DNA of 57,322 bases, taken from contig JARGFI010000010.1 of the NCBI GenBank assembly GCA_029210745.1, positions 8,717-66,038 on the forward strand. The letters are read 5' to 3'. This DNA comes from Desulfuromonadales bacterium. Lineage in GTDB: Bacteria; Desulfobacterota; Desulfuromonadia; Desulfuromonadales; JAHYIW01. Below, one piece after another: positions 3,063 to 21,854 of this stretch (its first letter is position 1; each line of letters starts with the position of its first letter). The notes under the pieces were generated by a model. It did not search any database. It was not told the origin of the DNA and saw nothing but the letters and a program-made list of their open reading frames with translations. Position numbers and translations under genes: made by a program.

Positions 3063-4473
3063 TATCCCCGCCCTGGTGATCGCCGCGCCGGCCAGCGGCA
3101 GCGGCAAGACGACCGTGACCCTCGGTCTGCTGGCGGCGCTCAACCGGCGCGGGCTGACCGTGGCGCCGTTCAAGGTCGGCCCCGATTTCATCGATCCGGG
3201 GCATCATGCCCGCTTCTGCGGACGCCCGTCACGCAATCTCGATGGCTGGATGTGCGGCGAGCAGCAGGTGCGCGAGACCTTTCGGCGCGGGTGCGAAGGG
3301 GCCAATATCGCGGTCATTGAAGGGGTGATGGGGCTCTACGATGGAGCCAGCGGCGACAGCGACACCGGCAGCACGGCGGAGATCGCCAGGTGGCTGAATG
3401 CCCCGATCCTGCTGACCGTTGATGCCCGCTCCCAGGCCCGGAGCGCCGCCGCGCTGGTCAAGGGATTCGTTACCTTCGATGAGCGGCTGACATTTGCCGG
3501 AATCCTTTTCAATCGCGTCGGCAGCGCAAGACACGCGCAGCTGCTGCGTGAGGCGGTAGCGTCAACGGCGAACTTGCCGGCGGTTCTTGGCTGTCTGCCC
3601 CGCTGTGACGATGTTGCCATGGCGGAACGTCATCTGGGGTTGATCACGGCGGAGGACGGCGGGAACGGGGCAGATTTTTATGAACGCCTGGCGGATTGGG
3701 TGGAGGCGCACGTTGATGTGGATGCCTTGCACTTACCCCCCTTTAAAAAGGGGGGGCAGGGGGGATTCGCCGCAAACGGAGTAATCCCCCTCAATCCCCC
3801 TTTGGCAAAGGGGGAGGCGCAGGTTCGCATCGGCGTGCCCCGCGATGCCGCCTTCTGTTTTTACTATCCGGAAAATCTGGAATTGCTGGCGGCAGCGGGA
3901 GCCGAGCTGGTGGAATTTTCACCGCTCAGCGATGCGCACCTGCCAGAAAAGCTCGCGGGACTCTATCTCGGGGGAGGATACCCGGAACTGTATGCGGAAC
4001 AGTTGGCGAAGAACACTTCGTTGCTCAACGAGATCCGTCGTGCGGCAAACATCGGCCTGCCGATCTATGCCGAATGTGGCGGTTTCATCTACCTCGCCGC
4101 CGCCGTTGCTGAGCATAACTTGTGCGGCATCTTCCCTGGCCAGGCCAGATTGCTGCACCGGCGCAAGGCGCTCGGTTATCGGGAAGTTGTCTTCACCGCT
4201 GACACCCCGCTCGGCCCGACGGGAAGTGTGGCACGTGGGCATGAGTTCCACTACACCGAACTTAAGCTGCCGGATGAGGTCGCGCGCTGCTATCAGCTGC
4301 AACGCCGCGACAGCGAGACACTCGGCAGTGAAGGCTATCGCATCAACAACGTCCTCGGTTCGTACGTTCATCTGCATTTCGGCAGCAATCCGACCGTGGC
4401 GGCGAATTTTGTGGCGTTTTGCGAAAAATATCAACGTCTTGTTCACCACGAAGGCCACGAAGAAATTCTTTAG
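3055..4473 (+). CDS. cbiA: Cobyrinate a,c-diamide synthase CbiA (glutamine-hydrolysing)
   Basis: A 472-residue amidotransferase that amidates the a and c carboxylates of cob(II)yrinate with Gln and ATP. The N-terminal synthetase domain has the P-loop ASGSGKTT and VGPDFIDPGHH. The C-terminal class I glutaminase-like domain has the nucleophile Cys341 in YAECGGF and a late His in YVHLHFG. Residues about 227-255 are encoded by a repeat inserted in frame between the two domains. The last residues (VHHEGHEEIL) and the stop come from the left arm of an intergenic CACCACGAAG repeat, so the native tail may have been replaced. It overlaps cobC by 8 bp. Confidence 0.95.
   Translation: MDNIPALVIAAPASGSGKTTVTLGLLAALNRRGLTVAPFKVGPDFIDPGHHARFCGRPSRNLDGWMCGEQQVRETFRRGCEGANIAVIEGVMGLYDGASGDSDTGSTAEIARWLNAPILLTVDARSQARSAAALVKGFVTFDERLTFAGILFNRVGSARHAQLLREAVASTANLPAVLGCLPRCDDVAMAERHLGLITAEDGGNGADFYERLADWVEAHVDVDALHLPPFKKGGQGGFAANGVIPLNPPLAKGEAQVRIGVPRDAAFCFYYPENLELLAAAGAELVEFSPLSDAHLPEKLAGLYLGGGYPELYAEQLAKNTSLLNEIRRAANIGLPIYAECGGFIYLAAAVAEHNLCGIFPGQARLLHRRKALGYREVVFTADTPLGPTGSVARGHEFHYTELKLPDEVARCYQLQRRDSETLGSEGYRINNVLGSYVHLHFGSNPTVAANFVAFCEKYQRLVHHEGHEEIL
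3734..3817. repeat. Double G/C-run palindromic element inside cbiA
   Basis: The left unit is CCCCCCTTT-AAA-AAGGGGGGG followed by CAGGGGGGATT. A 15-base spacer and an inverted second unit (AATCCCCCTCAATCCCCC, then TTTGGCAAAGGGGGA) follow. The whole is a roughly symmetrical inverted repeat. It is in frame with cbiA and codes PPFKKGGQGGF...VIPLNPPLAKGEA, Gly/Pro/Lys-rich sequence not expected in CbiA. A related single unit lies in cbiD. It looks like a REP-type mobile palindrome tolerated at a domain boundary. Confidence 0.85.
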
Positions 4474-6000: not shown

Positions 6001-6034
6001 ACTGATTTTGCCCGTTTTTCATAAAAATTGAACC

Positions 6035-6180
6035 GTTTCCAGGCGCAGGAAAGTGGAGTGCAAGGCTCCCGCGGACCCGCCGCTGTGACGGGGGACTGAC
6101 CTCTCATAAGGCCACTGCCGGTTTTCAAGCCGGGCGGGAAGGCGGGAGGAAGGGGCGATCCCGGAGTAGGGGCGAAAAAT
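6035..6180 (+). promoter_or_regulatory. Cobalamin (AdoCbl) riboswitch upstream of cbiX
   Basis: The order of elements fits the cobalamin aptamer: GGAAAGTGGAGTGCAAGGCTCC, CCCGCCGCTGTGACGGGGG (the CCGCNRCTGT-type loop), a GGCCACTG block at 6113-6120, the pair CCGGTTTTCAAGCCGG, GGGAAGGCGGGAGGAAGG, and a B12-box-like GATCCCGGAGTAGG at 6158-6171. In this family bound adenosylcobalamin turns expression off. It would control the cbiX-cbiC-cbiMNQO series. Its 3' edge merges with a perfect palindrome (6166-6193), so the expression platform is unusual. No promoter was identified with confidence. Confidence 0.87.
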
Positions 6181-6193
6181 TTTTCGCCCCTAC
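6166..6193. repeat. Perfect 28-base palindrome at riboswitch 3' edge
   Basis: Two 14-base arms, GTAGGGGCGAAAAA and its exact complement, meet with no spacer. The first bases overlap the B12-box-like GGAGTAGG. With A5/T5 in the stem centre and no U-run after it, it is not a classic terminator. It could act as the expression-platform hairpin or be a mobile palindrome that landed there. The cbiX ribosome binding site follows about 30 bases on. Confidence 0.85.
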
Positions 6194-9899: not shown

Positions 9900-10984
9900 T
9901 GGCGCGCCGTCTCCGTAGCGGCTATACCACCGGTGCCTGCGCTGCCGCCGCCGCGCTGGGTGCGGCGCGGATGCTCAGCGAGCAACGCTCGCTCGATGCG
10001 GTGACGCTCGAACTGCCTGCCGGGGAGAGTGCCACGTTCGCCTTGCTGGGGCAGACATTTGCTGACATAGCGGCGCATTGCTTCGTGATCAAGGACGCCG
10101 GGGACGACCCCGACATCACCAACGGCGTCGAGGTTCATGCCGAAGTGGTTTTAAATCCCCCCCGGCCCCCCTTTAACAAAGAGGGGGGCGGGGAGATTTC
10201 GATTGTCGGCGGGACCGGGATTGGCCGCGTCACCAAGCCGGGACTGGCGGTCCCGGTCGGTGACTGGGCGATTAATCCGGTGCCGCGCCAGATGATTACC
10301 GCCGCCATTCAATCGGTCTTTGCGAATCGCCCGATTCAGGTTACACTGTCGATTCCGGACGGTGAGGAGCGGGCAAAAAAGACGCTGAACGCGCGCCTCG
10401 GGATCGTCGGCGGGCTGTCGCTCCTTGGTACCACCGGGATCGTACGCCCGCTGTCGCATCAGGCCTGGACCGATACCTTGGAGGTGGCGCTCGATGTGGC
10501 CGCCGCCGTCGGCTGCGATTGTCCGGTCTTTGCCACCGGACGCAGCAGCGAAGCTGCCGCCCAAGGCTTCCTCAATTTCAGGGAAGAAGCCTACGTGATG
10601 ATGGGTGATCACGTGCGCTATGCGGTACAGGCGGCCCGGCGCAAAGGGTTCAAAAGAATCGTGCTGGCAGCGCAGTTCGCCAAGCTGGTCAAGATCGCCT
10701 GTGGTCATCCGCAGACCCATGTCGATTCCTCCCGGCTCGATCTGGCGGAGATGGCAGGCTGGGTCGGTGGCGAGGAACACGCTTTCATCCGCACGGCCAA
10801 TACCGCCCGCGAGGTCTTTCAGACGGTTGGTCCCGACCACCGGCTGGTGGCTGCGACCGCGCAGCGCGCGCTGGCGCAGCTGCGGGACTGGAGCAAGAAT
10901 CTGGCAACAGGAATCATTCTGGTTGATTACGATAAACAGGTGGCAGGAACCTTCGGGGACCTGCCCCCGCAACGAAACGGGTGA
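9899..10984 (+). CDS. cbiD: Cobalt-precorrin-5B (C1)-methyltransferase CbiD
   Basis: A 361-residue protein with the CbiD opening LRSGYTTGACAAAAA, the DDPDITNGVEV block, GTGIGRVTKPGL and GLSLLGTTGIVRPLS. It methylates C1 of the contracted ring in the anaerobic pathway. Residues about 85-101 (NPPRPPFNKEGGGEIS) are coded by a palindromic element inserted in frame, in a loop just before the conserved GGTGIGRVTKPG strand. It overlaps cbiO and is followed by cbiET after 4 bases. Confidence 0.95.
   Translation: MARRLRSGYTTGACAAAAALGAARMLSEQRSLDAVTLELPAGESATFALLGQTFADIAAHCFVIKDAGDDPDITNGVEVHAEVVLNPPRPPFNKEGGGEISIVGGTGIGRVTKPGLAVPVGDWAINPVPRQMITAAIQSVFANRPIQVTLSIPDGEERAKKTLNARLGIVGGLSLLGTTGIVRPLSHQAWTDTLEVALDVAAAVGCDCPVFATGRSSEAAAQGFLNFREEAYVMMGDHVRYAVQAARRKGFKRIVLAAQFAKLVKIACGHPQTHVDSSRLDLAEMAGWVGGEEHAFIRTANTAREVFQTVGPDHRLVAATAQRALAQLRDWSKNLATGIILVDYDKQVAGTFGDLPPQRNG
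10153..10199. repeat. G/C-run palindromic element inside cbiD
   Basis: AAATCCCCCCCGGCCCCCCTTT, then AAC, then AAAGAGGGGGGCGGGGAGATTT. The arms are near-complementary around a 3-base centre. It keeps the cbiD frame and adds about 16 residues. It is a single unit of the same kind found doubled in cbiA at 3734-3817. Confidence 0.85.
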
Positions 10985-13230: not shown

Positions 13231-14466
13231 ATGGCTCTGATCGAAGGTCTCAGGATACAAAATTATCGTGCGTTACACGATGTTGCCATGGGCCGCATCG
13301 GCACGGATCAGGCCCTTCGGGATGCTGAGCCCCTGACTCCCATGACAGCAGTCATTGGAAAAAACGGGGTGGGAAAAAGCTCGATTTTCGACGCCTTTGG
13401 TTTCCTTTCCGATTGCATGCAGACCGATCTTGAGACCGCCTGCAATGCGCAGAACAGGGGCGGTTTTGACAAGTTGGCATCATCCGGCTTGAACCAGCCG
13501 ATTACATTGACGATTTACTATCGGGAATCAAAAAACGACCGCCCGATTACGTACGAAGTTTCCATCGGTAAGGATGAAAAAAGCGGGTTGCCGATTGTCC
13601 TCAATGAACGATTGAGACAAAGGGCCAAAAATCAGTCGAAAGGGCAACCCCGCTCCTTCCTGCGGCTGGAGAGGGGCAAAGGGAGTGTGTGGACCGGAGA
13701 TGATAGTGTTGAAGGCGACGATGCGTTCATGCGCGAAGTTCAATTTGATCCCCACAAACTGGCGATTGTTTCCCTGGCGGAGCAATTTAAGGAAAATCCT
13801 CGCATAGCGCAATTCAAACAGTTTATCCAAAGCTGGTATCTCAGTTATTTTACCCCTGATTCCGCGCGTAAAATTCCGCAATCCGGGGTGCAAAAGCATC
13901 TGAATCTGCATGGCGACAATGTCGGTAACGTCGTTCAATATCTCGAACGAAATCATCCGATCGTATTCAAGCGGATTCTTATCGATATCTCAAAAAAAAT
14001 CCCGGGCATCGGCACGATTGAGCCGTATCGGGATAAAATCACCAACAACCTGTATCTGCTGTTTAAAGACAAGGGATTTGCGGCTCCATTTACACAACAG
14101 CAAATGTCCGACGGAACATTGAAAATGTTTTGCTACCTGCTGCTCCTCGAAGACCCTTCTCCGCCACCATTCATCTGTATCGAGGAGCCGGAAAACGGTC
14201 TTTATCACAAGTTGCTGGAGACCCTCGCCAGTGAGTTTCGTCAGCATGCAACGGGCAAAAAAGGCGCGTCGCAGATATTTATCACCACCCATCAACCCTA
14301 TTTTGTCGATGCCCTGGAGCCGAACGAGGTCTGGGTTCTGGAAAAAGAGGAGGATGGTTTTTCAACCATCAGACGTGCGAGTGATGACCCAGTTGTCAAG
14401 AATCTGGTCGCAGAAGGGCTTCCGCTCGGCGGGTTGTGGTATAGCGATTATCTGGACGCGAGGTAA
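13231..14466 (+). CDS. AAA family (OLD/SMC-like, AAA_21) ATPase, defence-type
   Basis: A 411-residue ATPase. It opens with LIEGLRIQNYRAL, the classic beta-strand start of RecF/OLD-like ATPases. Walker A GKNGVGKS is at 43-50, an ABC-like signature QMSDGTLKMF is followed by Walker B FICIEEPENGL, and the H-loop region is IFITTHQPYFVDAL. There is no TOPRIM domain of its own, but the next gene, 3 bases later, looks TOPRIM-like. GAGGAGGAACC precedes ATG 13231. The pair interrupts the cobamide series and appears richer in A/T than its neighbours. By analogy with OLD, PARIS and AbiL pairs, an abortive-infection role is inferred, not shown. Confidence 0.8.
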   Translation: MALIEGLRIQNYRALHDVAMGRIGTDQALRDAEPLTPMTAVIGKNGVGKSSIFDAFGFLSDCMQTDLETACNAQNRGGFDKLASSGLNQPITLTIYYRESKNDRPITYEVSIGKDEKSGLPIVLNERLRQRAKNQSKGQPRSFLRLERGKGSVWTGDDSVEGDDAFMREVQFDPHKLAIVSLAEQFKENPRIAQFKQFIQSWYLSYFTPDSARKIPQSGVQKHLNLHGDNVGNVVQYLERNHPIVFKRILIDISKKIPGIGTIEPYRDKITNNLYLLFKDKGFAAPFTQQQMSDGTLKMFCYLLLLEDPSPPPFICIEEPENGLYHKLLETLASEFRQHATGKKGASQIFITTHQPYFVDALEPNEVWVLEKEEDGFSTIRRASDDPVVKNLVAEGLPLGGLWYSDYLDAR

Positions 14467-14469
14467 ACG

Positions 14470-15132
14470 ATGCATTTTGTCATCCTCGTCGAAGATCAAT
14501 CTGGCAAGAAAGCCCTCGACATCCTAATCCCGAAAATTATTGGTGAACAACATACGTTCGAAGTGAAACCATATCGGGGAATTGGGCGCATTCCGTCCAA
14601 TTTGCGCGGGAAATCCGATCCGAGCAAAAGAATTCTGCTGGACCAGCTTCCAAGACTTCTCAGGGGATACGGAACAACTTTCGCTCATTATCCCAAAGAT
14701 TATCAGGCGGCGGTTTTCGTCGTTTGCGACCTTGACGACAAATGCCTTAAACAATTCCGCAGTGAATTGCTTACCCTTCTGAACAACTGTACACCAAAAC
14801 CGGAAACGCGTTTCTGCATCGCCATCGAAGAGGGAGAGGCATGGTTTCTCGGTGATATTCAGGCGATTAAGGCCGCCTATCCAAAGGCCCGGGATGCGCA
14901 CCTCAACTCATATGCCAACGATTCAATCTGCGGGACCTGGGAGACTCTGGCGGATGCCGTCTATCCAGGAGGAGCTCAAGCCCTGTCTGCGCTTGGTTGG
15001 CAAATGATCGGCGCTGAAAAGTCAAAATGGGCTGAGCACATTACGCCGTGCATGAATGTAGACGAGAATAATTCTCCCAGTTTCTGCTATTTCCGAGGCA
15101 AACTTCGGCAATTGGCGAGCATGACGGCTTGA
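14470..15132 (+). CDS. TOPRIM-like / DUF4276-like protein, probable effector partner of the ATPase
   Basis: A 220-residue protein. It begins FVILVEDQSGKKALDILIPKI, with an acidic residue after a beta strand as in TOPRIM folds. AAVFVVCDLDDKC follows (the DxD-like second motif), then CIAIEEGEAWFLGD, similar to the E..E.W block of DUF4276-type proteins. No known catalytic assignment. Three bases separate it from the ATPase, so both are probably made together. TOPRIM partners of AAA ATPases in anti-phage systems are usually nucleases acting on DNA or tRNA; that role is inferred. The exact family name is uncertain. Confidence 0.62.
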   Translation: MHFVILVEDQSGKKALDILIPKIIGEQHTFEVKPYRGIGRIPSNLRGKSDPSKRILLDQLPRLLRGYGTTFAHYPKDYQAAVFVVCDLDDKCLKQFRSELLTLLNNCTPKPETRFCIAIEEGEAWFLGDIQAIKAAYPKARDAHLNSYANDSICGTWETLADAVYPGGAQALSALGWQMIGAEKSKWAEHITPCMNVDENNSPSFCYFRGKLRQLASMTA

Positions 15133-15455: not shown

Positions 15456-16247
15456 TTGAATCAAAGCGCGAATAGCCCAGAAATCATTTTCGTCGGTGCC
15501 GGTCCCGGCGATCCCGAACTTATCACTGTTAAGGGGCTGAAAGCCCTCCAGTCCGCCGATGTCGTCGTTTACGCCGGTTCGCTGGTCAGCACCGCGCATC
15601 TGGCTGAACTGAAACCCGGCGCGCAGACCTACGACAGCGCGCCGCTGACCCTCGACGAGGTGCTCGCCATCATGATCCCGGCGGTTCGCGCGGGGCAGAG
15701 CGTGGTGCGCCTGCATACCGGCGACCCGGCGATCTACGGCGCGATTCAGGAGCAGATCGAGGTACTGGAACAGGAAGGAATTCCGTACCGGGTGATTCCC
15801 GGCGTGACCGCTGCGTTTGCCGCTGCGGCCAGCCTGCGTCAGGAGCTGACCCTGCCAGAGGTGTCGCAGACGGTGATCCTTTCGCGCCGCGAAGGGCGCA
15901 CCCCGGTCCCGGAGAATGAAAAGCTGGAAAAACTCGCAGCGATCGGTGGCACCCTCTGTCTCTACCTTTCGATCGGGATGATGGCCGAGGTGGTCAGCGA
16001 GCTGCTGGCTGGCGGCGTCTATACCGGGCAGACGCCGGTTGCGGTGGTCAGCAAGGCAAGCTGGGCGGATGAACAGATGGTCGAGGGAACGCTGGCCGAT
16101 ATTGCGGAAAAAGTGACCATGGCCGGAATCTCCCGCCAGGCACTGATCATCGTTGGGGAAGTGTTGAGCGCGCGCCAAAACGGCGTGCCGGTCAAATCGA
16201 AACTGTACGATGCTGGCTTTACCCACGGCTATCGAGAGAAGAAGTAG
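15456..16247 (+). CDS. cbiF: Cobalt-precorrin-4 C11-methyltransferase CbiF
   Basis: A 263-residue tetrapyrrole methylase of the expected size. Motifs are IIFVGAGPGDPELITVKG, VVYAGSLV, VVRLHTGDPAIYGAIQEQ and VIPGVTAAFAAAA, which together mark CbiF/CobM. It methylates C11 of cobalt-precorrin-4. The start is TTG 15456. The ATG at 15449 is out of frame and closes after eight codons. AAAAGGA is spaced about 7 bases from the TTG. It resumes the cobamide series after the inserted ATPase pair. Confidence 0.95.
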   Translation: MNQSANSPEIIFVGAGPGDPELITVKGLKALQSADVVVYAGSLVSTAHLAELKPGAQTYDSAPLTLDEVLAIMIPAVRAGQSVVRLHTGDPAIYGAIQEQIEVLEQEGIPYRVIPGVTAAFAAAASLRQELTLPEVSQTVILSRREGRTPVPENEKLEKLAAIGGTLCLYLSIGMMAEVVSELLAGGVYTGQTPVAVVSKASWADEQMVEGTLADIAEKVTMAGISRQALIIVGEVLSARQNGVPVKSKLYDAGFTHGYREKK

Positions 16248-16304: not shown

Positions 16305-17354
16305 ATGAAACTCGCGATCATCGCCATCACCGACGGCGGGGCCCGTCTGGCCCGTCGCCTCTCTTCCGGGTTAACTGACGCGGACATCTACCTCCCCGAA
16401 CGTTTCCGGGAAAATGACAGCAGCCGATATTTTGCCGAACCCGTGGCACACCTGCTGCCACGACTGTTTACCGAATATGCCGGGCTGATCTGCATCATGG
16501 CGACCGGGATCGTGGTGCGGGTGCTGGCGCCGCAGCTGCGCGGCAAGGCGCTCGATCCGGCGGTGGTGGTGTGCGATGAAAAGGGGCAGTTTGCGATCAG
16601 TCTTCTTTCCGGCCATCTGGGGGGTGCTAATGCGCTGGCGGAGGAGATCGCCGGGCTGCTGGACGGACAGGCGGTGATCACCACCGCGACCGACGTCAAC
16701 AACCTTCCCGCCTGGGACGAGATCGCCCGTCAGGCCGGGATGGTTGTCGAACCGTTGGATCAGATCCGGGAACTCAACGGGAGGTTGCTGCGCGGGGAAC
16801 CGATCGTCCTGGTCGATCCCCGGCGACGAATTGCCGAGCACTACCTTGATCTGCCGGAAATTACCTGGTGTGACACCTTTATGGCCGCCGATGCGTTTCC
16901 CGGCGTCGCCAGGGTTGTGGTTACTCACCGGCTGCTGCCACCCAAGGGACAGGAAAATATTCTGCTGCTGCGGCCGCGCGATCTGATCGTCGGCATCGGC
17001 TGCAATCGTCATACGACGAGCGAAGAGATCGCGGCGGTGGTCGACGAGGAGTTGCAGCGGGCGCAGTTATCGTTTGCCAGTGTCGCCGCTCTCGCCACTA
17101 TCGATGCCAAAGCCGATGAGACCGGGCTCCTCGACTTCGCCCGGCAGCGGCAATTGCGACTGGAATTTCATTCCGCCGCTGCCCTCAATGCGGTTGACGT
17201 ACCAACGGTCCCCTCTGACTATGTGCTTGCGGCGGTCGGTGCCAAAGGGGTGTGCGAACCTGCGGTGCTGCTGTCCGCCGGAACGGGGGGCCGGATCATT
17301 CTGCGTAAACGGAAGAATGGCAATGTGACGGTGGCGGTTGCCGAGAAACCCTGA
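16305..17354 (+). CDS. cbiG: Cobalt-precorrin-5A hydrolase CbiG
   Basis: A 349-residue protein. It has an N-terminal domain with ICIMATGIVVRVLAP and ISLLSGHLGGANALAE, a middle variable segment, and a C-terminal domain with VGIGCNRHTTSEEIAAVV and YVLAAVGAKGVCEPAVLL. All are CbiG landmarks. It opens the delta-lactone and releases C20 as acetaldehyde, the ring-contraction partner of CbiH. AAAAGGAAAAA precedes ATG 16305. Confidence 0.95.
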   Translation: MKLAIIAITDGGARLARRLSSGLTDADIYLPERFRENDSSRYFAEPVAHLLPRLFTEYAGLICIMATGIVVRVLAPQLRGKALDPAVVVCDEKGQFAISLLSGHLGGANALAEEIAGLLDGQAVITTATDVNNLPAWDEIARQAGMVVEPLDQIRELNGRLLRGEPIVLVDPRRRIAEHYLDLPEITWCDTFMAADAFPGVARVVVTHRLLPPKGQENILLLRPRDLIVGIGCNRHTTSEEIAAVVDEELQRAQLSFASVAALATIDAKADETGLLDFARQRQLRLEFHSAAALNAVDVPTVPSDYVLAAVGAKGVCEPAVLLSAGTGGRIILRKRKNGNVTVAVAEKP

Positions 17355-17509: not shown

Positions 17510-19822
17510 ATGAACGGAAAACTCTACGTCGTCGGGCTCGGTCCCGGCGATTTGCAACATATGACCCCGGTCTGCAACGCGGCGCTGGAAGAGGCTGCGG
17601 TGATCGTCGGCTACCAGACCTACCTTGACCTGATCGCGCCACTGCTGATCGGGAAAGAGGTCATCTCCTCGGGGATGATGAAGGAGGTTGACCGTTGTCG
17701 GCAGGCGCTGGCGATTGCCGCGTGCGGGAAGATTGTGGCGCTGGTGTCATCGGGGGATGCCGGGATTTACGGTATGGCCGGACTGGTGCTGGAATTGGTC
17801 AATGAACCCGGTGCCGCAGTAGATCACGTCGAGATTGAAATCATCCCTGGCGTTTCGGCGGTGCAGGCGGCGGCGTCCCGCTTGGGTGCACCGCTGATGC
17901 ACGATTTTGCGGTGATCTCCCTCTCCGACCTGCTCACCCCCTGGGCGTTGATCCGCCAACGGCTTGACGCCGTCGGCCGCGCCGATTTTGTCATTGCCCT
18001 CTACAATCCGCGCAGCAAATCCCGCGTCACCCAAATCGAAGAGGGGCGCGACATTCTGTTGCGGCATCGCTCCCCGGATACTCCGGTCGGGATCGTGCGC
18101 AATGCCTGTCGGGTTGGCGAGAGTGTCACCCTCAGCACCCTGGCGACCTTCACGGACGAAGAGATCGACATGTTTTCGCTGGTGATGATCGGGAACAGTG
18201 CGACTTTTGTCGATGCTGCCGGGCGGATGATTACCCCGCGCGGCTATGCGGCACGCTATCTGCGCACCGATATGGCCTCCGCCCCCCCCCTAAAATCGAC
18301 CCGGTCCCTTTTTGTTGGCGGCACCGGCAGCGATGTTGGCAAGAGCCTGGTGGTGGCGGGACTCTGCCGGTTGTTAAAGCGTCAAGGGAAGTCGGTCGCA
18401 CCGTTCAAGGCGCAGAACATGGCGCTCAACTCGGCGGTGACCCCGGAAGGGGGAGAGATCGGCCGGGCGCAGGCGTTGCAGGCGGCGGCCTGTGGACTCG
18501 CGCCGCATACCGACATGAACCCGGTGCTGCTGAAGCCAAACTCGGCGACCGGCTCGCAGGTCATCGTCCACGGCAAGCCGGTCGGCAACATGAGTGTCAC
18601 TGAGTATCATGCCTATAAGGATCAGGCCTTCGTCAAAGTGCGGGAGTCGTTCAAACGGTTGGCGACGCAGTACGACCTGGTAATCATGGAAGGGGCCGGG
18701 AGTATTGCCGAAATCAATCTCAAGGCGACCGACATCACCAATCTGCGCGCGGCGGCGATGGCCGATGCGCCGGTGCTGCTGGTTGCGGATATCGATCGCG
18801 GCGGGGTGTTCGCCGCCATTGTCGGCACGCTGGAACTCTTGAGTGTGGAGGAGCGAGCATCTGTTGCTGGAGTGATCATTAACAAGTTTCGCGGCGATCC
18901 CGCCCTGCTTGAATCGGGTCTACGGGAGATTGAAGATCGCACCGGCGTGCCGGTCCTCGGTGTCATTCAGTGGCTGAAGTTGCAGCTGCCGGAAGAGGAT
19001 TCTGTTGCGCTAACGCGCAAAGCAACGAGCTCCCCGGCGGCGCTGGTGCGGATCGGCGTGGTGCGGTTGCCGCACCTGTCCAACTACACCGATTTCGATC
19101 CCCTTGAGCAATCACCCGGCGTCGGCCTGAGTTATTTTGACGAGCCGCGCGCAATCGCGGCCCTCGATCTGATTATCCTCCCCGGCAGCAAAAGCACTCT
19201 GGCCGATTTGATCTGGTTGCAGGAGACCGGGCTGGCAACGGCCATCAGCGCCTATCACGCCGCCGGTGGGCGGGTCATCGGGATCTGCGCTGGCTATCAG
19301 ATGCTCGGCCGCAGCGTCGCCGATCCCGACGGCATGGAATCCACCCTCGGCAGCGTGGCAGGACTGGGGCTGCTTGACGTGACGACGACCCTCTTTCCCG
19401 ACAAACAGACCCACCTGGTGCGCGGCGAGTTGTTGCCCGGCGCCCGGCGCGCCGGACTGACCATGCGCGGCGAGGTCACCGGCTATGAAATCCACATGGG
19501 GGAAACCCTCCTGGCAGCGAGTGTCGCGCCGCTGCTGAAAATCAGCGAGCGGTCGCAGCAGCGCGTGGCCCTCGACGACGGCGCGGTCAGCGCTGACGGG
19601 CGGGTCTGGGGGAGTTATCTGCATGGACTCTTCGATAACGCCGAGCTGACCCGTGACCTGTTAACCCAGATCGCTGCCGACCTGAGCGTGATCCTCCCGG
19701 CGGGAGATGATGCCAACGGCACTTCGATTGATCGTGAGCTTGACCGCTGGGCCGACCATCTCGCGACACATCTCGATCTGCAAAAAATCTTTTCCCTGCT
19801 CGATTTGGAGCCAGAGAGATGA
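17510..19822 (+). CDS. Cobalt-precorrin-3 C17-methyltransferase / cobyric acid synthase fusion (CbiH-CobQ)
   Basis: A 770-residue two-enzyme protein. Residues 1-~245 are CbiH (VVGLGPGDLQHMTPVCNAAL, LVSSGDAGIYGMAG, IIPGVSAVQAAASRLGAP, FVIALYNPRSKSR), which methylates C17 and contracts the ring. Residues ~262-770 are CobQ/CbiP: the P-loop-like GTGSDVGKS, APFKAQNMALNS, then a glutaminase domain with Cys593 in GICAGYQMLG and His in SYLHGLFDN. It amidates the b, d, e and g side chains. The linker MASAPPL is coded across a run of nine C (18282-18290). With eight C the frame would meet TAA at once and give a free CbiH. The join could be real or a run-length artefact. Confidence 0.85.
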   Translation: MNGKLYVVGLGPGDLQHMTPVCNAALEEAAVIVGYQTYLDLIAPLLIGKEVISSGMMKEVDRCRQALAIAACGKIVALVSSGDAGIYGMAGLVLELVNEPGAAVDHVEIEIIPGVSAVQAAASRLGAPLMHDFAVISLSDLLTPWALIRQRLDAVGRADFVIALYNPRSKSRVTQIEEGRDILLRHRSPDTPVGIVRNACRVGESVTLSTLATFTDEEIDMFSLVMIGNSATFVDAAGRMITPRGYAARYLRTDMASAPPLKSTRSLFVGGTGSDVGKSLVVAGLCRLLKRQGKSVAPFKAQNMALNSAVTPEGGEIGRAQALQAAACGLAPHTDMNPVLLKPNSATGSQVIVHGKPVGNMSVTEYHAYKDQAFVKVRESFKRLATQYDLVIMEGAGSIAEINLKATDITNLRAAAMADAPVLLVADIDRGGVFAAIVGTLELLSVEERASVAGVIINKFRGDPALLESGLREIEDRTGVPVLGVIQWLKLQLPEEDSVALTRKATSSPAALVRIGVVRLPHLSNYTDFDPLEQSPGVGLSYFDEPRAIAALDLIILPGSKSTLADLIWLQETGLATAISAYHAAGGRVIGICAGYQMLGRSVADPDGMESTLGSVAGLGLLDVTTTLFPDKQTHLVRGELLPGARRAGLTMRGEVTGYEIHMGETLLAASVAPLLKISERSQQRVALDDGAVSADGRVWGSYLHGLFDNAELTRDLLTQIAADLSVILPAGDDANGTSIDRELDRWADHLATHLDLQKIFSLLDLEPER

Positions 19823-20751
19823 GCTGGTTGATCGCCACCGCCTTCGGGCTCGATCTGCTTTGTGGCGACCCGCGCAAAATGCCGCACCCGGTGGTCGGCA
19901 TCGGCAAATTGATCGCTTTCTTCGATAATAAGCTGAATACCGGTTCGGCTCCCGCTTTGGGCGGTGTCCAGCTGGTGACCGGAACATTGATCATCACCGG
20001 TCTGCTCGCCTGGCTTGGTTTGACCCTCCTTGGCTTGCTCTCAACCCTGCTCGGCTGGATAGCAGCGGCGTGGTTGGCGTATACGACGTTGGCATTGCGT
20101 GAACTGCATCGCCAGAGTCGCAAGGTGGTGGACTGTGTTGAGCGCGGTGATCTCGCGGCAGCGCGTACGGCTCTTTCTCACATCGTCGGGCGTGACACCG
20201 CGCAACTGAATGAGGAACAAATTCTCACGGCCTGTCTCGAAACCGTGGCGGAAAATGCCTCGGACGGCGTCATCGCCCCGCTCTTCTATCTCTTTCTCGG
20301 TGGCCCGGTGCTGGCGCTCCTTTATAAAGCGGTCAACACGATGGATTCGATGGTCGGTTACAAGAACGAAAAATATCTCGAATTCGGACGCTGTGCGGCG
20401 CGGCTCGACGATCTGGCCAACTGGCTTCCCGCGCGACTGACGGGAATGCTGATCGTCGTGGCAGCAGCGACTGCCGGTCTGAATGGCGGGGCAAGTTTCC
20501 GCTGTATGCTGCGTGATGCCGGCAAACACGCCAGTCCCAATGCCGGGTGGCCCGAAGCAGCGGCAGCGGGTGCCCTCGGGATTCAACTCGGGGGCGCAGC
20601 GAACTATTTTGGCAAGAAGGTCGACAAAGCCACCCTTGGCGACCCGGACCAACCGGTGACAGTGGCATCATATCGGGACATGGTCAAGCTGCTTTACCTG
20701 GCCGCGAGCTACGCGTTGGCAGGAGGAATGGTGGTGCAATGGCTGATCTGA
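19819..20751 (+). CDS. cbiB: Adenosylcobinamide-phosphate synthase CbiB
   Basis: A 310-residue membrane protein with about five hydrophobic segments. It starts LIATAFGLDLLCGDPRKMPHPVVGIGKLI, the CbiB hallmark, with ENASDGVIAPLFY and YKAVNTMDSMVGYKNEKY further on. It attaches aminopropanol (phosphate) to adenosylcobyric acid. ATG 19819 overlaps the end of the CbiH-CobQ gene. The stop lies beyond the cobD start, so the two overlap by 13 bases. Confidence 0.95.
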   Translation: MSWLIATAFGLDLLCGDPRKMPHPVVGIGKLIAFFDNKLNTGSAPALGGVQLVTGTLIITGLLAWLGLTLLGLLSTLLGWIAAAWLAYTTLALRELHRQSRKVVDCVERGDLAAARTALSHIVGRDTAQLNEEQILTACLETVAENASDGVIAPLFYLFLGGPVLALLYKAVNTMDSMVGYKNEKYLEFGRCAARLDDLANWLPARLTGMLIVVAAATAGLNGGASFRCMLRDAGKHASPNAGWPEAAAAGALGIQLGGAANYFGKKVDKATLGDPDQPVTVASYRDMVKLLYLAASYALAGGMVVQWLI

Positions 20752-21854
20752 TTATCCCCACCCACGGTGGCGAGGCGTTGCGGGTGGCGCGTGAATCGGG
20801 AATTCCGCTCGCGGACGTTCTCGATTTCTCCGCCAGCATCAATCCTCTCGGAATGCCTGAGGGCGTGCGACCAGCGGTGCTGGCCGCGCTCGACGAATGC
20901 ATTCATTATCCCGAGGCGCACGGGGCCTCGCTGATTGAGGCGCTGGCTGATTTTCATGCGATTGCGGCGCAGCGGCTGCTGGTCGGCAACGGCTCGACGG
21001 AGCTGATCTATCTGCTGCCGCGTGTCCTGCGCCCGCGCCGGGCGGCGCTCGTCACCCCGGCATTCAGTGAATATGCCAAAGCCTTGGCGCAGATCGACTG
21101 TCCGGTCGATCTGATCCCGCTCGCGGCTGACGATGACTTCCAGTTCGATCCGGAACGGATCGTGGCGGCGTTGGCGGAAAATGTTGACCTCGTGTGGCTG
21201 GCGAATCCCGGCAACCCGAGCGGAGCCTTGATCGCCGTCGATGCGATTTGCCACTTGCTGGAACTGCTACCGGAGGGCGTCCGGGTGGTGCTCGATGAAG
21301 CATTCATCGACTTTGCCCCGGATACCTCGTTTGTCGCTCAGGCCACCGAATATCCGCAACTGATGATGCTGCGTTCGATGACCAAATTTTATGCCATCCC
21401 CGGCTTGCGAGTCGGCTATCTCCTCGCCGCGCCAGAGCTGATCGCGACCCTGCATGACGCCCAGCCCCCCTGGAGTCTGTCGACTCCGGCGCTGGCGGCG
21501 GCGAAGGCCTGTTTGCGGGACGCTGATTATCGACAACGCACGCTGGCGATGATGCCGCAGTGGCGGGAGGCCCTGGCAAAAGAGCTGACGGCACTGGGCG
21601 CGACGGTCTATCCGGCCGCAGCCAACTATCTGCTGGTGCGGCTACCCACCGCAGCACCAGCCGCGTCCATCGTTGCCGCCCGCCTGCGCGACCAGGGGAT
21701 CCTGATCCGCAACTGCGGAAATTTTTATCCCCTCGATGAACGGATGGTGCGCGTGGCGGTGAAAACGCCGGAGGACAATGGACGACTGGTTAAGGCGTTG
21801 CGGAATCAGCTGGAGCGCAAGGCGGGGGAGCATAATGCAGCATTCGTGGATTGA
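20739..21854 (+). CDS. cobD: Threonine-phosphate decarboxylase CobD
   Basis: A 371-residue PLP-dependent aminotransferase-fold protein. It decarboxylates L-threonine O-3-phosphate to the (R)-1-amino-2-propanol phosphate used by CbiB. Visible marks are HGGEALRVA and DFSASINPLG at the N-terminus, ANPGNPSGALI, VVLDEAFIDF and the PLP lysine in SMTKFYAIPGLRVGY. The start is ATG 20739; AGGAGG at 20721-20726 is 12 bases away, and upstream frames would run through cbiB. It is homologous to HisC, but the neighbours favour CobD. Confidence 0.92.
   Translation: MADLIIPTHGGEALRVARESGIPLADVLDFSASINPLGMPEGVRPAVLAALDECIHYPEAHGASLIEALADFHAIAAQRLLVGNGSTELIYLLPRVLRPRRAALVTPAFSEYAKALAQIDCPVDLIPLAADDDFQFDPERIVAALAENVDLVWLANPGNPSGALIAVDAICHLLELLPEGVRVVLDEAFIDFAPDTSFVAQATEYPQLMMLRSMTKFYAIPGLRVGYLLAAPELIATLHDAQPPWSLSTPALAAAKACLRDADYRQRTLAMMPQWREALAKELTALGATVYPAAANYLLVRLPTAAPAASIVAARLRDQGILIRNCGNFYPLDERMVRVAVKTPEDNGRLVKALRNQLERKAGEHNAAFVD

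Follow-up and report, generated by a model that had tools for sequence, protein, structure and literature searches.

The cbiH-cobQ gene and its operon

The window, by which we mean the whole 57,322-nucleotide stretch of Desulfuromonadales DNA analysed here, carries a cluster of cobalamin (B12) biosynthesis genes, one of which encodes two enzymes of this pathway in a single open reading frame. The riboswitch, the fused gene with its two domains and the operon neighbours that bear on its history are as follows.

6016..6191, + strand: cobalamin riboswitch preceding the cbi genes (RF00174, 50.3 bits)
15456..16247, + strand: cbiF, upstream operon neighbour, at its position in the conserved gene order (TP_methylase)
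16305..17354, + strand: cbiG, immediate upstream neighbour (CbiG_N/mid/C)
17510..19822, + strand: fused cbiH-cobQ gene, 770 codons plus TGA (770 aa, predicted 81.7 kDa)
17510..18247, + strand: CbiH domain (TIGR01466 at residues 5-247), with invariant T242 P243 R244 G245 Y246
18302..19822, + strand: CobQ (adenosylcobyric acid synthase) domain, residues 265-770 (NF001989 at 266-764)
19819..20751, + strand: cbiB, whose start codon overlaps the stop of cobQ in ATGA (CobD_Cbib)
20736..21854, + strand: gene resembling that for threonine-phosphate decarboxylase (CobC/CobD), unfused, start approximate (Aminotran_1_2)

An earlier note, prepared from the letters of the sequence, had placed CbiH and CobQ in one frame, and this reading holds: the frame is uninterrupted from end to end, and both domains score above curated NCBIfam cut-offs. 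The CbiH half matches TIGR01466 (cobJ_cbiH) over the entire model (positions 1-239 of 239) with 314.8 bits against a cut-off of 246.35, and it is placed in the tetrapyrrole methylase family by a Pfam TP_methylase match and by phmmer matches to 2zvb and 3nut. The CobQ half matches two cobyric acid synthase models, NF001989 with 639.1 bits (cut-off 273) and TIGR00313 with 520.1 bits (cut-off 309.9). No second cbiH or cobQ was found in a search of the organism's own genome, in which the other matches were weak and at the level of paralogues. Between cbiL and cbiF, at 13231-15132, the cobalamin cluster also holds a gene pair of the AAA ATPase / DUF4276-like type, the members of which match PADLOC HEC-01A (E 7e-174) and HEC-01B (E 3e-98).

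The linker, its run of nine C and the fusion in relatives

The two domains are joined by a short linker, which contains two elements that might in principle alter what the gene produces.

18248..18301, + strand: linker, residues 247-264, fast-evolving and predicted disordered
18272..18274, + strand: ATG in frame (Met255), where internal initiation is possible, though the codon is not conserved
18282..18290, + strand: run of nine C (C9) inside the linker

The count of nine C given in the earlier note is exact for the assembly sequence, and its expectation that a run of eight would free CbiH and leave CobQ without a start is borne out in silico. With 8 or 11 C the CbiH frame stops after 260 or 261 codons, respectively, with 7 or 10 C it stops after 363 or 364 codons, and a run of 8 leaves no ATG, GTG or TTG in the CobQ frame back to its upstream stop. 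From this the note had drawn three possibilities: a real fusion, a run that varies in length between cells, and a sequencing error. The first of these is strongly supported by the fusions of related genomes, while the other two are rejected.

The sister species, which is 92% identical and is the only other genome of the genus in the comparison set, has the same single-frame fusion with a linker containing six C and differing codons; the C9 run sets the inter-domain frame in the window's species only. Since the open-frame lengths given by the search tool run through stops, as at L135 and L136, the fusion was scored only from translated frames or from full-length matches without stops; it was present, by hand count, in about 40 genomes of the order and in about 130 of the 277 genomes of the class, which is the one containing Geobacter; Geobacter, Geomonas and Geotalea are among the named relatives in the set. 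We read 58 distinct linkers directly, some of them from closed chromosomes (for example G105, G135, G043, G155, G175, G191, G252, G253, G257 and G260). All are open in frame, with lengths of 22-104 aa (median 34), and a homopolymer of 8 or more occurs in only 3 of them. The support that the earlier note had asked for, namely relatives that carry the fusion on linkers without a homopolymer, was thus found many times over. The opposite finding that it had named, separate genes with a conserved cobQ start, was encountered only outside the fused clade; inside the clade no conserved internal start was found.

These data bear directly on the two readings in which the C9 run is decisive. Errors are frequent in long C runs, and in a draft assembly of 118 contigs the true run might have eight or ten C, with cbiH and cobQ as separate genes. 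However, the fusion recurs with different linkers in the sister species and in some 130 further genomes, a pattern for which a run-length error does not account. A run of eight would, moreover, leave CobQ startless in a genome with no other cobQ, and both halves evolve under purifying selection in the present frame (dN/dS relative to the sister species of 0.22 for the CbiH half and 0.26 for the CobQ half). A frameshift error is therefore very improbable, and annotation should keep a single gene. A phase-variable switch between the fused enzyme and CbiH alone is suggested by the capacity of a coding C9 run to slip and by the clean stop just past CbiH that 8 or 11 C would bring into frame, but the six C of the sister species show that the run is not conserved, and runs of at least 8 occur in just two other linkers among the 58, one of them built from a dispersed repeat. 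C runs are also about as common as expected by chance (0.70 expected per shuffled window, 2 present; 48 overlapping matches to the C-run pattern in the 2.7-Mb genome, or about 33 tracts by hand count). The run accordingly shows neither of the features by which we would recognize a phase-variable homopolymer, conservation in relatives and enrichment over chance. In addition, the off state would abolish CobQ entirely, and we regard such a switch as highly improbable. The nine C are an incidental feature of the linker in a single species, and the weight that had been placed on them was not warranted. That slippage on the run during transcription or translation also yields some free CbiH in this species, and with it an uneven ratio of the early to the late enzyme, is very unlikely; if true, it would be a regulatory peculiarity of this lineage, added to a fusion that is itself old.

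A detail missing from the earlier note is the ATG at 18272, shortly before the nine-C run, from which free CobQ might be made alongside the fusion. This codon is in frame and just upstream of the CobQ domain, but it has no Shine-Dalgarno match and is AAG in the sister species. Across the linkers of the fused clade, a conserved internal cobQ start was sought and not found: methionine is absent from 30 of the 58, and in a further 18 the sole methionine lies three residues before the P-loop, inside a core strand of CobQ. Initiation at 18272 might contribute some free CobQ, although we consider the production of both forms improbable.

Phylogeny, gene order and other B12 enzyme fusions

In a CobQ tree of 101 rows, the 49 fused rows form one clade (SH-aLRT 99) together with L047, a locus truncated on its CbiH side by the end of the contig. 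The gene in the window belongs to this fusion lineage, as it has a single open frame, CbiH followed by CobQ, and a CobQ half that falls within the fused clade. The CbiH tree is less resolved; the fused rows are not one clade on the best tree, on which 3 changes are needed, and a single fused clade is not rejected (AU p = 0.114). Most fused loci keep the order cbiF-cbiG-cbiH·cobQ-cbiB-threonine-phosphate decarboxylase. In families f31, f58 and f111, which belong to the phylum but not to the class, cbiH and cobQ lie side by side as separate genes. Six outgroup loci (L128, L130, L135, L136, L175 and L176) have the same domains as the fusion and, where the locus is long enough, the order cbiF-cbiG-cbiH-cobQ, but in these a stop, in some cases with a short spacer, divides cbiH from cobQ, whereas the fused gene has none. 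In three of them (L128, L135 and L136), the two genes share a frame with a single stop between.

The earlier note was correct in saying that CbiH and CobQ are not neighbours in the pathway; they are neighbours in the operon, and this adjacency would explain why they were joined. The adjacent genes of a cbiF-cbiG-cbiH-cobQ operon probably lost the intervening stop, a route which the same-frame outgroup pairs with one stop suggest to be the simplest. The fusion most likely arose once, before the diversification of the class containing Geobacter, and appears to have been passed on mainly vertically since then.

Fusions between B12 enzymes are familiar. The published CobD/CbiP fusion (threonine-phosphate decarboxylase–cobyric acid synthase) of Geobacter lovleyi and Pelobacter carbinolicus (PMC3403914) resembles the present one in that cobyric acid synthase is the C-terminal half, fused to an enzyme of the B12 pathway, and the class is common to both. 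It differs in its partner, a late-pathway PLP enzyme instead of CbiH; its CobQ halves sit in a separate clade, and cbiH remains its own gene in such genomes. Within the order and class, the CobC/CobD–CobQ fusion also occurs at L120-L124, L141, L144, L146, L147, L173 and L227, and the two types of fusion coexist in one genus (G125, G126). The distinct clade of these CobQ halves marks the fusion as independent, so that CobQ was fused at least twice in the class. Chlorobium has the bifunctional fusions CbiHC, CbiFG and CbiET (PMC8620254), of which CbiHC is likewise a fused cbi product containing CbiH, although its partner is CbiC (precorrin-8 methylmutase) and not CobQ. No description of the CbiH–CobQ pairing was found in the literature searched, the scope of which did not extend to most subscription papers or to domain-architecture databases. 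The CbiH–CobQ fusion is old and ordinary in kind. A separate arrangement was seen on one contig of 77,113 bases (G261:C2), which carries a standalone CbiH and, within a long open frame, a second CobQ.

Predicted activities and the role of the fusion

In an alignment of 45 fused proteins, the CbiH motifs GxGPG and TPRGY are invariant and GDAG is nearly so, while on the CobQ side the P-loop (G271-S279), D408, C593 and H705 are invariant. The last three align with D146, C332 and H440 of Salmonella CbiP, and we take the P-loop, the Cys and His of the glutamine amidotransferase and the Asp equivalent to CbiP D146 to be functional residues of cobyric acid synthase. By homology, both halves are predicted to be active enzymes, the CbiH half probably carrying out the C17 methylation and ring contraction of cobalt-precorrin-3. 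From the alignment of 45 rows, AlphaFold predicts two folded domains at a mean pLDDT of 82.6 and scores residues 244-261, in the linker region, below 50. The dN/dS of the linker relative to the sister species is about 1.2, a value from a small sample of only 17 codons.

Since the fusion has long been conserved and other B12 enzymes are fused too, it might be thought to serve substrate channelling or a defined B12 metabolon, with the two domains packing together. In the B12 pathway, however, the CbiH step is early and the CobQ step late, far apart from each other, which makes direct channelling unlikely. The variable linker also argues against it, as lengths range from 22 to 104 aa, the linker in the window is predicted to be disordered, and some linkers are built of dispersed repeats. 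A further point against it comes from one draft genome, G139, in which CbiH is reduced to its first 12 residues, followed in frame by CobQ (L214/L258, G139:C284). At this locus neither cbiG nor cbiB lies next to cobQ, and neither cbiH nor cbiG was found in the 99%-complete genome at the thresholds used. CobQ can thus apparently stand without its CbiH partner. This CobQ could be a natural CbiH-less derivative, but as the G139 draft is in about 370 contigs, its junction with the CbiH remnant might also have been misassembled. On balance channelling seems unlikely and there is no sign of it; the fusion is best read as a bifunctional enzyme of an ordinary sort, its two domains flexibly tethered.

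Dispersed repeats are present in frame in the linkers of four genomes from two genera (L132 in G068, L149 in G066, L030 in G130 and L131 in G131). A search with the G068 linker DNA gave 16 additional matches elsewhere in that genome, and the G130 linker DNA gave 29 in the related G131, including the G131 linker itself. The uptake of repeats in frame speaks for a flexible tether and against a packed interface. A repeat may also be the cause of the assembly break at the linker in G140 (L215, L216). The repeat family that fills the linker in G130 and G131 has copies in the window as well, at 3736-3815 and at 10153-10188; the latter lies inside cbiD and reads in frame as NPPRPPFNKEGGG.

We conclude that the window very probably contains a real and old CbiH–CobQ fusion, most likely of single origin and probably by stop loss, inherited mainly vertically and likely to couple the synthesis of its two halves, in which the C9 run plays no special part. 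Because cobQ lacks a start of its own within the riboswitch-led operon, the likely effect of the fusion would be coupled synthesis at a 1:1 dosage. It represents a lineage-wide bifunctional B12 enzyme with non-consecutive activities, and for this reason would offer a clean test of whether dosage and co-expression, and not channelling, are what maintains fusions of pathway enzymes.
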